Origin: an uncultured Roseibacillus sp. | GTDB taxonomy: Bacteria > Verrucomicrobiota > Verrucomicrobiia > Verrucomicrobiales > Akkermansiaceae | Length of the DNA: 47,434 bases | Reading direction: 5' to 3' | NCBI GenBank assembly: GCA_937949965.1 | Contig: CALFBF010000005.1 | Coordinates: 1-47,434 of the forward strand | Shown: positions 5,492 through 44,081 of the stretch, one piece after another | Numbering within the stretch: the first letter of the stretch is position 1 | Layout of the letters: every line of letters starts with the position of its first letter | Program-made: the position numbers and the translations under genes | The notes under the pieces: generated by a model | What the model was told of the DNA's origin: nothing | The model's input: the letters and a program-made list of their open reading frames with translations, nothing else | Databases searched by the model: none

Positions 5492-6325
5492 ATGAGCTCC
5501 TCTCCTCCTCTCAAAGCCCTTCTCCTAATCGGAGGAAAATCCCAACGTATGGGCAGTGATAAGGCCGCCCTTGTCTTCGAAGGAAAAACGCTGTTAGAGC
5601 GCATTCTCGCGACTATCACTCCGCTGATTCCGGAAGCCTACCTCTCGATTGCCCATGACGATGAGCGAGAATTCTCTCACCCCACCATTCGTGATCTGAC
5701 CCCTAACCCCGGCCCCTTGGGCGGTTTACAAGCAGCCTTTCATCACGATCCCGAGGCCGCTTGGCTGGTGCTGGCCTGTGACTTGCCTCTCTTTGATTCC
5801 ACCACGCTAGAGAATCTGTTAGACAAGGCAGACCCGACTCAGAAAGCGACCTGTTATCGAAACCGGCTCGACCAACGCGCGGAACCCCTCTGCACGCTCT
5901 ATCAACCGGCAGCGGCACATGCACTGACCAACTACCTAGCAGACGATCGCCGGTGTGCTCGCAAATTCCTCGAATCCCTTGAACCCGTGATGCTCCCCCT
6001 TCCTCATCCGCTCGCGCTCGATAATGGGAATCGGCCCGAGCAACTGCACGAGCTCACTATTCTTGCCAAGGAAGGCCTCCAGGAAAAAGAAGTGACGGTA
6101 ACCTACTACGGCAAGCTCTCTGCAGAAGCACCTGCCGCGACGGAGACTCTGACCACCACCGCAGCCACCCTTGCGGGGCTCTATGAAGAACTCCGGCTCA
6201 AGCACTACCTCAGCCTCGATCTCGATACCGTCAAGCCCGTCCTCTCCGATGAATTTGTCGATTGGACTACTCCTCTCCCCGAGGACGCCCAAGTCGCCTT
6301 CCTCCCTCCTTTTGCAGGCGGTTAG
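5492..6325 (+). CDS. mobA: MobA-MoaD fusion: molybdenum cofactor guanylyltransferase with C-terminal sulfur carrier
   Basis: Residues 1 to about 190 are a MobA-type nucleotidyltransferase: LIGGKSQRMGSDKAAL is the glycine-rich GTP-binding loop and LVLACDLPLF carries the metal-binding Asp. From about residue 201 the sequence changes to a MoaD-like ubiquitin fold (VTVTYYGKLSAEA) and ends exactly in FLPPFAGG. The terminal Gly-Gly is the site adenylated and thiocarboxylated in MoaD, so the carrier end is free despite the fusion. The partner moaE starts 26 bp downstream. The fusion is an unusual arrangement; both halves look intact. Confidence 0.9.
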   Translation: MSSSPPLKALLLIGGKSQRMGSDKAALVFEGKTLLERILATITPLIPEAYLSIAHDDEREFSHPTIRDLTPNPGPLGGLQAAFHHDPEAAWLVLACDLPLFDSTTLENLLDKADPTQKATCYRNRLDQRAEPLCTLYQPAAAHALTNYLADDRRCARKFLESLEPVMLPLPHPLALDNGNRPEQLHELTILAKEGLQEKEVTVTYYGKLSAEAPAATETLTTTAATLAGLYEELRLKHYLSLDLDTVKPVLSDEFVDWTTPLPEDAQVAFLPPFAGG

Positions 6326-6351: not shown

Positions 6352-6756
6352 ATGTTTCAAATCACTGATAAAGCGATTACTACGAGTGAACTCGTATCAT
6401 TGGCCGAGTCTCCATCTGCCGGCGCACTGGTAGTCTTTGAAGGTCGAGTCCGCAACCATCACCATGGTAAGGAGGTCACTGCACTCGACTACTCCTCCCA
6501 TCCCACCCTCGCGCAGCCGGAAGGCCAAAAGCTGGTAGCGGAAACTCTCGAAAAGTTCCCTGACGTCGAAAAGATTGCCGCGACTCATCGTACCGGTCAC
6601 CTTGCTATTGGTGAGATTGCAGTGTGCATCGTCGTTACTTCACCACACCGTCCCGCTGCTTTCGCTGCCTGTGACTACCTTGCCCTCCAGCTCAAAAACC
6701 GTCTCCCAGTCTGGAAGCACGAGCATTTCGCTGATGGTTCGCAAGATTGGACTTAA
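6352..6756 (+). CDS. moaE: Molybdopterin synthase catalytic subunit
   Basis: MoaE uses the thiocarboxylated C-terminus of MoaD to insert the dithiolene sulfurs into molybdopterin. The 134-residue protein contains GALVVFEGRVRNHHHGK, the conserved HRTGHLAIGE and the C-terminal LPVWKHEHFADGSQDW with K122 in the active-site position. The ATG at 6352 is chosen because it follows the mobA-moaD stop by 26 bp and gives the usual MoaE length; an upstream GUG/ATG extension would overlap the previous gene and adds no conserved sequence. Its stop overlaps that of the convergent ctaB gene. Confidence 0.96.
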   Translation: MFQITDKAITTSELVSLAESPSAGALVVFEGRVRNHHHGKEVTALDYSSHPTLAQPEGQKLVAETLEKFPDVEKIAATHRTGHLAIGEIAVCIVVTSPHRPAAFAACDYLALQLKNRLPVWKHEHFADGSQDWT

Positions 6757-7667
6757 GCCTTATTCCAAAAGCCGAAGAGAGCGATCAGAACAAGAGGTAG
6801 ATAGAGGAGAGTCGCTAAGAAGAACTTCCGAAAGTGCGCCCGTTCTCCGGTCTTAAGAAAACGACGTCCGGACGCCACGAGCATTCCGGCGAGAAGGACG
6901 CCGACTATGACAAAGGGCCAACTCGCGATCCCGAATGGTAAAACCAGAACAGCTAAGACAGCCAAGCCAAGGGAAAAAGCCACGGCGAGTCCTACACTAT
7001 GCTTGCCGCTGACATCCCCATTGGACCACATCTTGTAACCTGCTAATTCATACTCCTCACGGCAAAGCCAGTTGATGGCCACAAAGTGCGGAAGCTGCCA
7101 AAGAAAGAGGAGAGCAAATAAATACCAGCCCCCTACTTCCCAGAGACCACCTCCTCCTGCAGTCCAGCCGATGAGTGGAGGCAAAGCGCCAGGGACGGCA
7201 CCTACTAGAGTATTAGTAGAATGCCACTTCTTCATCGGGGTATAGATGAAGACGTAAGTGGCAATCGTCGCAGCCGCAATCCAGCCGGGGGCGGTGCCAA
7301 CCTTCACCCAAAGGTGGACGATGCCGAAGGCCGAGAGCCCCCAACCAATCATGAAAGCCTTGACGATGCCCATGCGCTGCGAAGGGAGGGGCCGGTCGGC
7401 GGTGCGAGCCATCAAGGCATCGCTATCCACCTCGGAAAGCTGATTAAAAACCGCCGATCCAAAAGCACAGGCCGTGGTCCCGAGAATGAGATGGAGCAGG
7501 GTCCAGAACTCCCACCCACCATGACGGCAAGCAATGGCGTAGCCAAAGAAGGTGGTGATAATTACGAAAAGGTTGAGACGAGCCTTCACGAGCGTCTTGA
7601 AATCCTCCAAGGCACTGGGCACCTCTTTGGCTACCTTTTCACATTTGTCTGGAAGTTTCTCACTCAA
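6753..7667 (-). CDS. ctaB: Protoheme IX farnesyltransferase (heme O synthase)
   Basis: UbiA-superfamily membrane prenyltransferase that attaches farnesyl to heme b to make heme O for terminal oxidases. The signature is visible as NQLSEVDSDALMARTADRPL, the Asp-rich motif with the MxRTxxRPL tail. The protein begins with LVKARLNLFVI after a short charged leader and has about eight to nine hydrophobic segments. The start is a TTG at 7667; no ATG lies in frame upstream, so the exact start is uncertain. It stands alone here without oxidase subunits. It is divergent from the selenoprotein gene and overlaps moaE by 4 bp at the stops. Confidence 0.93.
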   Translation of the reverse strand: MSEKLPDKCEKVAKEVPSALEDFKTLVKARLNLFVIITTFFGYAIACRHGGWEFWTLLHLILGTTACAFGSAVFNQLSEVDSDALMARTADRPLPSQRMGIVKAFMIGWGLSAFGIVHLWVKVGTAPGWIAAATIATYVFIYTPMKKWHSTNTLVGAVPGALPPLIGWTAGGGGLWEVGGWYLFALLFLWQLPHFVAINWLCREEYELAGYKMWSNGDVSGKHSVGLAVAFSLGLAVLAVLVLPFGIASWPFVIVGVLLAGMLVASGRRFLKTGERAHFRKFFLATLLYLPLVLIALFGFWNKA

Positions 7668-7811
7668 GAAGTCGAAGGTGCCCCAAGGCAGGATTTTGAA
7701 AAAGCGTTTTTCCCGATAAAGTGGTCCCCAGCTAAACCGCTTTTAATCCAGCATCAGGGAACGAGTTTTCCTTGGCCAATTTTACCCGAAGGTTCATCGT
7801 CAGGGCACAAA

Positions 7812-8024
7812 ATGATCGAGATCGAATACTGCGCTAAGTGAAACTACCTTCCCGAAGCTGACCGGGTGTCAGCTGAAATTAAGACGGTGACCGAGGAGGC
7901 CATCACCCTCGTGCCAGGAGAAGGAGGGATCTTCGAAATCCGTATGGATGGAAGACTCCTCTTTAAAAAAGAGCGCGGAGGTCACTTCCCTGCAGATGGA
8001 GAAGCCGCCGCGCTTTTCTCGTAA
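7812..8024 (+). CDS. SelW/Rdx-family selenoprotein with in-frame TGA (CxxU)
   Basis: Read through the TGA at 7839-7841, this is a 70-residue Rdx (SelW/SelT/SelH) protein. It starts MIEIEYCAK, has selenocysteine as residue 10, and continues NYLPEADRVSAEIK. C7 and U10 form the CxxU redox motif in the first beta-alpha turn. Downstream ITLVPGEGGIFEIRMDGR and RGGHFPADGEA match the family's second half (PGxGGxFE, GxFP). The stop is TAA at 8022. An AGGG at 7802-7805 sits 6 nt before the ATG. A SECIS-like hairpin lies at 7856-7874. Rdx proteins are thioredoxin-fold redox proteins of uncertain substrate. Standard gene callers would stop at the TGA and miss it. Confidence 0.92.
7856..7874 (+). promoter_or_regulatory. 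Putative bacterial SECIS hairpin
   Basis: AGCTGAC (7856-7862) pairs perfectly with GTCAGCT (7868-7874) around the 5-nt loop CGGGT. The loop begins 21 nt after the TGA and has G at its second position. Bacterial SECIS elements lie inside the coding region just after UGA, with an apical loop roughly 16-37 nt downstream and an early G, so this fits. Binding by SelB is inferred. Confidence 0.8.
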
Positions 8025-8028
8025 AACT

Positions 8029-9030
8029 TTACTTAACAATCACAGTCGCTCCCGGGCGGATGACCTGAGGAATACGGGCCGCATCCCAGTTCGCCAATCG
8101 GAAGCATCCAGAACTACGAGCACGACCAATGGTGCGTGGGCTGTCAGTACCGTGAATCCCAATTCCGCTTTTGCTTAAGCCTGCCCAGAGAACACCCACT
8201 GGGTTGTTAGGTCCTCCCGGAATATTGAGTGCTTCCTTGCTGCGCTTACCTTTGGTGAGGAGCTGCTTGTCGTAGCGCCAAGTCGGCCATTCGACGGTGT
8301 TACGAAGCTTCCAAGTGCCGCGATGAATGAACTTCTCCTGACCGGGGGTGGTTGGGAAGCTGGCGACGAGACGGTAAGAGCTATCCGCACTCGGGAGAGC
8401 GGCAGCTATACTCGCAACCGACTTATCGGGAATCTCGTAAATTTGAATCTGACGTTTCGCGGTATCAATAATGACTTTGCGGCGAGCAAGTGAGCTGCCT
8501 TCTCCTTTGTAGCTGCGACCACGCTTAATTTCTTCAATTTTGAAGGGCTCAACATTAGGCACGATGAGAGTGCGGCCAGGAACAGCCGCCCAAGTGGTCT
8601 TCTTACCATTCAGTTCATAAAGCACGCTCTCTGAAGTGTGATAACGTTCAGCCATGAACTCGTAGTAACTGCGATAAGTAAGAGCCTTAGCCTCGGCCTG
8701 CTCGACGCGCTTGTAGGAAAGCTTGGGATTGACATACTGCTTCGCAATCTTAGGAACCGTTGCGGTAACGTACGTGTGTTCAACTAAAGCGTCCGCCTCG
8801 GCCTGAATACTGACCAAATCGTCTTCGCTACGACCCATAGATTGGTTGTAAGCCGCAATTGCTCGTTGGGTGAAAGTTCCCGGTTTGCCATCAATGAAAC
8901 CAGGGCCGAACATTTTCTGATCGAGTAAAATTTGAACTCGAAGCGCAGCATCACGCTCCGTTCCAAGCGAGATGTCCGTTGCAGAAGCAAACGACGTCAA
9001 AAAAAGGAAGGCCAAGAAAAAAAATTTCAT
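8029..9030 (-). CDS. Secreted L,D-transpeptidase (YkuD domain)
   Basis: Peptidoglycan cross-linking or lipoprotein-anchoring enzyme of the ErfK/YbiS/YcfS/YnhG group, acting in the periplasm. The signal peptide MKFFFLAFLFLTSFASA is clear. Residues about 25-65 (RVQILLDQKMFGPG, then TQRAIAAYNQ) look like a peptidoglycan-binding helical repeat, and 110-140 resemble a LysM segment. The YkuD active site has H293 in IGIHGTDSP and C309 in RSSGCFRL. The usual His before GC is Ser here. Its stop lies 4 bp from that of the convergent selenoprotein gene. Confidence 0.92.
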   Translation of the reverse strand: MKFFFLAFLFLTSFASATDISLGTERDAALRVQILLDQKMFGPGFIDGKPGTFTQRAIAAYNQSMGRSEDDLVSIQAEADALVEHTYVTATVPKIAKQYVNPKLSYKRVEQAEAKALTYRSYYEFMAERYHTSESVLYELNGKKTTWAAVPGRTLIVPNVEPFKIEEIKRGRSYKGEGSSLARRKVIIDTAKRQIQIYEIPDKSVASIAAALPSADSSYRLVASFPTTPGQEKFIHRGTWKLRNTVEWPTWRYDKQLLTKGKRSKEALNIPGGPNNPVGVLWAGLSKSGIGIHGTDSPRTIGRARSSGCFRLANWDAARIPQVIRPGATVIVK

Positions 9031-9162: not shown

Positions 9163-10458
9163 TTAGGGCACGATTTCTTCCATGAAATCGCGTAATTTTC
9201 CATCAATAGAAGGCGAAACAACCGCAGTTAAAAGAACGTCGTTCTCTTCGAAGTCGGTAGCAATCACCTTTCCTTCTTGATGCAGTAAGTTAATGAGATC
9301 CCCCCGGTGTTGTGGAACTCGATAACGACGGCGTTTCACCCGATCAGCAAGCTTGTTCTCCGCAGCCTCTATCAGCTTGTCTATTCCTTGGCCTTTTTTC
9401 GCTGAAATCTCGATTGCATTGGGAAAACGCTCTCGTAGTCGGGTCAATTGGCTCTCTTCTGCGAGGTCCACTTTATTTAATATTGTGAGGGCGGACTTGT
9501 CGCCCGCGCCCAGCTCATCGAGCACCCCGATAGTGGTCTGATAGAAAGCCTCCACCCCGGAATCACTGGCATCGAGCACGTGTAATAAGAAATCCGCGAG
9601 GACAGCCTCTTCCAAAGTCGATTTAAAAGCCTCCACCAAACGGTGAGGTAGATTGCGAACAAAACCTACGGTATCGGTGAGCAAAAGAGGCTGACCTCCG
9701 GGTAACTCGATCCGACGCGTCGTGGGATCTAAGGTCGCAAAAAGCTGGTCGGCCTCGTAGACATTAGAGCCAGACAAGCGGTTGAGCAAAGTCGACTTAC
9801 CCGCATTGGTATAGCCCACGATAGCTGCCGCGGGCACTTCGAAGCGGTCGCGGTCCTTACGCCGAGTGGCGCGCTGACGCCGCACGACTTCGAGCTCTTT
9901 CTTAATTCGTGAAATCTTGGTACGCGCCAGGCGGCGATCGATCTCGATCTGTTGTTCGCCCATACCGCGCGACGCTGCGCCACTCCCTCCCCCACCACCG
10001 CCTTCGCGGTCGAGGTGGCCCCACATCTTGGCCATCCGCGGGAGAGCATATTCCATACGGGCCAGCTCGACCTGTAGCTGAGCTTCTTTCGTGGAAGCGC
10101 GTTGCGCAAAAATATCGAGAATGACTTCTTCTCTATCGATGACTGTGATTTCGGCAGCGCCTTCCCAGTTCCGCTGTTGAGATGGGGAGAGTCCATTATC
10201 AATGATGAGGCAGTCGCAGTCTTTTTCGCGCGCGAGATCAACGACTTCCTGGGACTTTCCGGTGCCGCAGATGAAAGCTTTGTGCTGGGAGCGGACACGA
10301 ATCAGCTCCATCCCCACCACCCCAATGCCGAGCGTATCTACCAGCTCTTCAAGCTCTAACAACAAAGCACGGGCCTCGCCCTCTTCTTCGCTTTTGAAGT
10401 AGAATCCTACTAACATCGCCCGCTCCACTAAGTCAGGCTTTTCTCTTACCTCGAACAT
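9163..10458 (-). CDS. hflX: Ribosome-associated GTPase HflX
   Basis: HflX binds the large ribosomal subunit and splits stalled ribosomes under stress. The N-terminal HflX domain (about 1-175) ends in a long helical linker with the family's Gly-rich stretch GGGGGSGAASRGMGEQQIE. The G domain has G1 GYTNAGKST at 215-223, G3 DTVGF from 262 and G4 NKVDL from 328. Length, 431 residues, is typical. It is monocistronic as far as can be seen, with a 64-bp gap to the upstream protease gene on the same strand. Confidence 0.97.
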   Translation of the reverse strand: MFEVREKPDLVERAMLVGFYFKSEEEGEARALLLELEELVDTLGIGVVGMELIRVRSQHKAFICGTGKSQEVVDLAREKDCDCLIIDNGLSPSQQRNWEGAAEITVIDREEVILDIFAQRASTKEAQLQVELARMEYALPRMAKMWGHLDREGGGGGGSGAASRGMGEQQIEIDRRLARTKISRIKKELEVVRRQRATRRKDRDRFEVPAAAIVGYTNAGKSTLLNRLSGSNVYEADQLFATLDPTTRRIELPGGQPLLLTDTVGFVRNLPHRLVEAFKSTLEEAVLADFLLHVLDASDSGVEAFYQTTIGVLDELGAGDKSALTILNKVDLAEESQLTRLRERFPNAIEISAKKGQGIDKLIEAAENKLADRVKRRRYRVPQHRGDLINLLHQEGKVIATDFEENDVLLTAVVSPSIDGKLRDFMEEIVP

Positions 10459-18931: not shown

Positions 18932-19217
18932 GAGCTCCGAAGGAGCGCCTGGATACCAGCATAGCCCGCAGGGCTATGACCTTATTCCGAGCAGAAGTCC
19001 CAAGGTCTGAAAGACCGTGGGACTTCTGCATCTATCATTTTCAGGGCCAAAAACCGCCATCCGTTTCTTCATGCCGATACAATACGAGGGAATGGTTCAA
19101 AAACATTATCAGACAAGAAGCTCAGACGCATCTTGCGGTCTTTCAGACCTCATGACTGACGCTTGTTGTTCAATAGCCCTGCGGGCTATGCTGGTATCCA
19201 GGCGCTCCTTCGGAGCT
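18932..19217. repeat. REPIN-like inverted repeat pair, copy B
   Basis: Same design as copy A: GCTCCGAAGGAGC (18934-18946; 19204-19216), ATAGCCCGCAGGGCTAT (18961-18977; inverted at 19173-19189) and GGTCTGAAAGACC (19004-19016; 19137-19149). In the left arm the last palindrome is enclosed in a further 11-bp stem, CAGAAGTCCCA (18992-19002) with TGGGACTTCTG (19018-19028), absent from copy A. The centre (about 120 bp) is unrelated in sequence to that of copy A. Confidence 0.85.
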
Positions 19218-19246
19218 GATTGAGCTGATTGAGCTGATTGAGCTGA
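19214..19246. repeat. 9-bp tandem repeat at edge of REPIN-like pair
   Basis: The unit AGCTGATTG occurs three times in a row (19214, 19223, 19232), followed by a partial AGCTGA at 19241. It starts inside the terminal palindrome of copy B, so it probably arose by slippage at the repeat end. Confidence 0.85.
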
Positions 19247-43852: not shown

Positions 43853-43857
43853 AAAAA

Positions 43858-43945
43858 CCAGGGGACCACGGCAATGAAGGACAAGCTACGGCTGCTACGT
43901 TTCCGTCCTGACCGGGTTCACCAGCCTGCACTCCGCGGCCCCTGG
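43858..43945 (-). ncRNA. ffs: Signal recognition particle RNA, small bacterial type (4.5S)
   Basis: Read on the minus strand, the 88-nt RNA begins CCAGGGGCCGCGG and ends GGTCCCCTGG, closing a 7-bp terminal stem. The conserved domain IV is plain: GTGAACCCGGTCAGGACGG, then GAAACGTAGCAGCC, i.e. the GGTCAGG internal loop, a GGAA-type tetraloop region and AGCAGCC, which bind Ffh. A TTTTTCT tract directly follows the 3' end as terminator. The 5' end is set by the stem and could extend a few bases. It forms the SRP with Ffh for co-translational membrane targeting. Confidence 0.95.
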
Positions 43946-44081
43946 CGGGAATAGCCGTAAACGGTAACGCCCACTCCTGAAAGTTGTTTTTCTCTTTTTC
44001 TTCAAAATTGGTAGTCCTCCTTCCCTTTAAAAAACTTTCTGCTCTTGGCTCCGCAAGTATCCATTTATTAGCTTCTTCACT

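Follow-up and report, generated by a model that had tools for sequence, protein, structure and literature searches.

A well-supported SelW-like selenoprotein gene of the Rdx family in an uncultured Roseibacillus sp., and its UxxU relatives

Bacterial SelW-like selenoproteins with a CxxU motif have been published since 2005 (PMC1088965), and in a 2006 survey they appear with very few or zero Cys homologues in Sec-containing organisms (PMC1794560). Literature on Verrucomicrobia, selenoproteins, and SECIS elements led to PMC4807772, whose passages on the subject concern Planctomycetes. PMC12013277 contains no SelW terms, and PMC9402790 has SelW in one legend. Here, we describe a gene of this kind in a window of 47,434 nucleotides, the whole stretch of DNA analyzed, from an uncultured Roseibacillus sp. 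We consider it very probable that its product is a SelW-like selenoprotein of the Rdx family with a redox role, and that the UGA at 7839 is read as selenocysteine with the help of a hairpin. It shares its family (PF10262), its motif, and an internal bacterial SECIS with the known bacterial CxxU proteins, from which it differs only in host lineage and sequence; it brings no new feature and is a well-supported SelW-like selenoprotein of an ordinary kind.

The preliminary description of this DNA had proposed a 71-codon frame with one TGA in a CxxC-type motif, and both the frame and the TGA lie where it placed them. The frame runs from an ATG (7812–7814) to a TAA (8022–8024), giving 71 codons including the stop and 70 residues when the TGA, the second position of the C-x-x-U motif, is read as U. 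Truncation at nine residues by gene prediction, which had also been anticipated, is only one possible outcome; the mechanical list of open reading frames differs, holding nothing but fragments of the gene, namely a 206-amino acid frame that closes at the TGA and a 52-amino acid GTG frame beyond it. When the 60 codons after the TGA were compared with those of the same-genus relative L033, the differences numbered 11, 8, and 36 at codon positions 1, 2, and 3 (24 synonymous and 14 other codon changes), and the corresponding comparison with L039 gave 10, 15, and 33. The excess at third positions against L033 indicates that the region past the TGA is maintained as protein. Features of the locus and its UxxU relatives are collected in Table 1.

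Table 1. Features of the Rdx locus in the window and UxxU places among its relatives
Feature	Position or places	Strand	Evidence
UbiA-family gene, upstream of Rdx	6753-7667	-	
AGGG, possible ribosome-binding site, 6 nt 5' of ATG	7802..7805	+	sequence seen
Rdx/SelW-like selenoprotein gene, 70 residues, CxxU at residues 7-10	7812..8024	+	Pfam PF10262, NCBIfam TIGR02174
In-frame TGA, read as selenocysteine (residue 10)	7839..7841	+	TGA conserved in relatives
Bacterial SECIS-type hairpin, 7-bp stem, 5-nt loop CGGGT	7856..7874	+	fold, covariation, published constraints
L,D-transpeptidase gene, downstream of Rdx	8029-9030	-	
HflX-like GTPase gene, downstream of Rdx	9163-10458	-	
UxxU SelW-like places, order	L018-L023, L025, L026, L034, L037, L038, L077		
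UxxU SelW-like public records	19 of 30, among L084-L112		

With the TGA translated as U, the product matched Pfam PF10262 (Rdx) at 58.7 bits against a cut-off of 22.6 (E 6.6e-16) and passed NCBIfam TIGR02174 (47.2 bits versus 34.2). The top-scoring NCBIfam model was NF041051 SelTWH_Campy at 77.9 bits, yet this score is under its curated cut-off of 88. An AlphaFold2 model, built from 32 aligned sequences with Cys in place of Sec, had a pLDDT of 96.6 and a pTM of 0.84. Searching with this model, Foldseek returned 2fa8 as the best solved structure (TM 0.89 by query length, E 9.3e-07) and mouse SelW, 2npb, next (TM 0.65, E 1.9e-3), and a profile search of PDB sequences gave eight distinct sequences at E ≤0.01, among them 2fa8 (1.8e-17) and mouse SelW (1.6e-07). 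2fa8 is a Cys-form Rdx protein from Agrobacterium, titled in the PDB as putative selenoprotein W-related, and it is like the window product in both predicted fold and profile match. The window product passes the family cut-off, carries CxxU after the first strand, and has a predicted thioredoxin-like fold, as befits a member of Rdx. Such a small thioredoxin-fold protein would form a selenenylsulfide/selenol–thiol couple between Cys7 and Sec10, and it would most likely be a redox protein acting toward a small thiol or a partner protein. The GTG frame raises another reading, that the locus makes two products, one a short peptide terminated at the TGA and the other a 52-residue protein starting from GTG 7866. 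That frame does exist, but its protein would miss the first strand and the CxxU loop, both required by the predicted fold, and the I and Y ahead of the motif, like the N, Y, and P following the TGA, do not vary across the 32 aligned proteins, which makes two products highly improbable.

Bacterial SECIS elements are described in PMC13188914 as having a loop of 3 to 9 nt, a stem of 4 to 16 bp, a G in the first two loop positions, a spacing of 16 to 37 nt from the UGA, and an MFE of ≤ −7.5 kcal/mol. The window hairpin (5-nt loop, 7 bp, 21 nt, −10.0 kcal/mol) agrees with every one of these published constraints, in line with the earlier proposal of a bacterial SECIS layout. It consists of the arms AGCTGAC (7856–7862) and GTCAGCT (7868–7874) around the loop CGGGT (7863–7867), its stem starting 14 nt and its loop 21 nt from the TGA; the perfect 7-bp hairpin of the preliminary description is therefore present, with the 21 nt given there correct for the loop. 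Folding energy was dropped as proof of a SECIS. On its own, the 25-nt hairpin folds at −10.0 kcal/mol (equaled by 2 of 200 shuffles) and a 44-nt stretch containing it at −10.3 kcal/mol (11 of 200), while a 61-nt stretch is unexceptional (z −0.31, 56 of 200); longer stretches were likewise unexceptional for the relative L020, and the corresponding region of the Cys homologue L015 folds at −13.6 kcal/mol. Energy by itself is weak evidence for a SECIS, and covariation among relatives is the stronger test.

For this test, four duplicates in the hairpin stretch were removed from the 36 short-form sequences described below, leaving 32 distinct sequences in a gap-free alignment. Across them, 88.4% of the 224 cells of the window's 7-bp stem are paired versus 75.5% after shuffling (0 of 500 shuffles as high), and sliding the register by 1 to 3 columns drops the paired cells to 14.3 to 54.0%. 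The covariation score of the stem was 0.472 versus 0.201 in shuffled alignments, with none of the 500 reaching it, and 34 cells were changed on both stem sides versus a shuffled mean of 9.9 (again 0 of 500 as high). Two of the five measures were unexceptional: for pairs with double changes, 123 of the 500 shuffles scored as high, and for pair types 64 did. Counted over all 36 places, seven of seven pairs form in 11, six in 20, and five in 5; a mid-stem mismatch occurs in six, where only two to three inner pairs are unbroken, and a G lies within the first two loop positions in every one. Between the window and L033, a switch of GCT to GCC and one of TCA to TCG, both synonymous, jointly turn a T-A stem pair into C-G. 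The two Cys-form members of the order examined (L015 and L016) are CxxC proteins and, unlike the window gene, have no SECIS hairpin in the window register, where they form 4 and 2 of 7 pairs with none adjoining the loop. Family match, Sec position, hairpin layout, and covariation all support the original reading of a SelW/Rdx-type selenoprotein. We infer that SelB carrying Sec-tRNA-Sec would bind this hairpin just 3' of the UGA, inside the coding sequence, and that the UGA at 7839 would thereby be decoded as selenocysteine.

The gene had been taken to imply selA, selB, selC, and selD in the same genome, whose assembly comprises 2,729,062 bases in 166 contigs and is 90.62% complete. The first three are there: selA (460 bits versus 267.9), selB (340.9 bits versus 242.25), and a tRNA-Sec (63.9 bits versus a gathering cut-off of 47; tRNA-SeC with anticodon tca by ARAGORN). 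For selD, no match in this genome was over the cut-off. As controls, 14 well-known genomes were searched, and the cut-offs were passed in five (tRNA-Sec), two (selB), and one (selA), so the tRNA-Sec score alone is not fully specific. Two weak selD matches, which by the look of their ORFs are presumably thiL and purM, were set aside as candidates for the genome's own selD. Because both same-genus genomes sampled (G088 and G091) have selD, each with one TGA inside, and because the assembly is incomplete, the missing selD is likely a gap in the assembly; the surroundings of selD differ between those two genomes. The machinery also bears on the possibility that the TGA specifies a different residue (Trp, for example) or is passed by general readthrough with no SECIS involved. 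The open frame is all that speaks for this reading; against it, members of the family have Cys or Sec at this position, Sec machinery is present in the genome, and the hairpin is conserved with a fixed spacing, and we give this reading almost no credence.

A survey of 189 genomes of the order found an Rdx match in 31 genomes at 34 places, of which 31 are intact short forms with the TGA, two are stop-free CxxC forms (L015 and L016), and one is decayed (L078 in G012, which keeps the TGA and has extra TAA and TAG stops). G154 (L015 and L075) and G180 (L016 and L076) each have a CxxC long-type Rdx plus a CxxU selenoprotein form. A draw of 387 genomes from the phylum yielded 48 that have Rdx; of the 48 places, 40 are stop-free and were left out, and eight have one TGA, three of them already known and five added to the set. 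The resulting 36 intact short-form places (31 from the order and 5 from the phylum; 24 CxxU and 12 UxxU) all carry TGA at the window's Sec codon. TGC or TGT in close relatives, which according to the preliminary description would mark the TGA as a sequencing error, was looked for and not seen in this set. The lack of short forms with Cys at the Sec position among the 36 agrees with the 2006 survey (PMC1794560). We therefore regard it as very unlikely that the TGA is a true stop or a sequencing error in a broken Cys-form Rdx gene. The absence of selD from the assembly and the existence in the order of a decayed copy with additional stops would fit a broken gene, but the TGA conserved at the same codon in so many genomes already contradicts it, and the third-position bias behind the TGA and the covarying hairpin argue against it as well.

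Genomes with Rdx also tend to have the Sec genes. A selA match is present in 61 of the 189 order genomes and in all 31 with Rdx, 30 of these being over the cut-off (the match in G124 is a fragment under it), and selD is present in 29 of the 31 and absent from two. By a hypergeometric calculation that ignores the relatedness of the genomes, co-occurrence with Rdx has a probability of 7e-19 for selA and 5e-15 for selD. In the order, selD matches mostly contain a single TGA; eight (about 255–301 bits) are TGA-free and lie in frames of about 750 to 806 amino acids, perhaps fusions.

The neighbors of Rdx in the window and in the G091 and G088 stretches include no operon partner indicating a substrate. 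In G091, the transpeptidase and HflX-like genes also lie beside Rdx, and in the G088 Rdx stretch neither was matched. Elsewhere in the window, a single frame at 5492–6325 contains NTP-transferase (MobA-like) and ThiS-family domains and looks like a MobA–MoaD fusion between the MoaC and MoaE genes. A bacterial small SRP RNA (62.2 bits) lies at 43853–43947 on the minus strand, and a perfect tandem repeat of the 9-base unit GAGCTGATT (3.8 copies) lies at 19213–19246.

In 11 of the 31 Rdx genomes of the order, 12 places have TGA at both motif positions (UxxU). These places have a single hairpin whose loop lies 21 to 22 nt past the second TGA and 30 to 31 nt past the first, both spacings being within the published range of 16 to 37 nt. 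In the UxxU relatives as a set, which are mostly Verrucomicrobiota, both redox residues are now probably Sec, with one internal hairpin serving two UGAs 9 nt apart. This single internal element for both codons is unlike the arrangement in eukaryotic UxxU SELENOW, where the SECIS is located in the 3'UTR. A pattern scan of public contigs gave 30 stretches, 19 that continue as Rdx and 11 that do not; a scan of viral contigs gave four further pattern matches, none of them Rdx. By title, the 19 Rdx records, which overlap partly with the genomes of the order survey, comprise 16 from Verrucomicrobiota (two from one isolate) and one each from Chloroflexi, Planctomycetota, and Gammaproteobacteria, the last three assignments being less sure because all are metagenome bins. 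For the CxxU and UxxU forms together (42 rows, 74 columns), the best tree shows three form changes, most of its forks are weak, and judging from these sequences the UxxU form may have had a single origin.

Two Sec residues in the same family are known from eukaryotes, with UxxU SELENOW in amphioxus and Ostreococcus lucimarinus (PMC7539508). The prokaryotic table of PMC13188914 (2026) has SELENOW-like proteins only as CxxU with one Sec, this paper and PMC9312934 have UxxU in other prokaryotic families, and PMC2398784, on ocean data, has UxxU in a Prx-like family and SelW-like proteins as CxxU. No bacterial UxxU SelW was found in the literature searched, a search whose reach did not extend to most subscription papers. 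Because UxxU is known in eukaryotic SELENOW and in other bacterial families, what would be new is the occurrence in a bacterial SelW form and the element shared by its two codons.

The window gene itself, a CxxU form, adds a selenoprotein that standard annotation would break to a lineage with little selenoprotein work in the literature searched. It is the UxxU relatives that deserve to be followed further. If our reading of them is true, they encode a SelW-like diselenide protein of bacteria and provide a case for testing whether a single SECIS can decode two neighboring UGAs, and, if translated, they would offer a way to probe what a diselenide gives a SelW-like protein.
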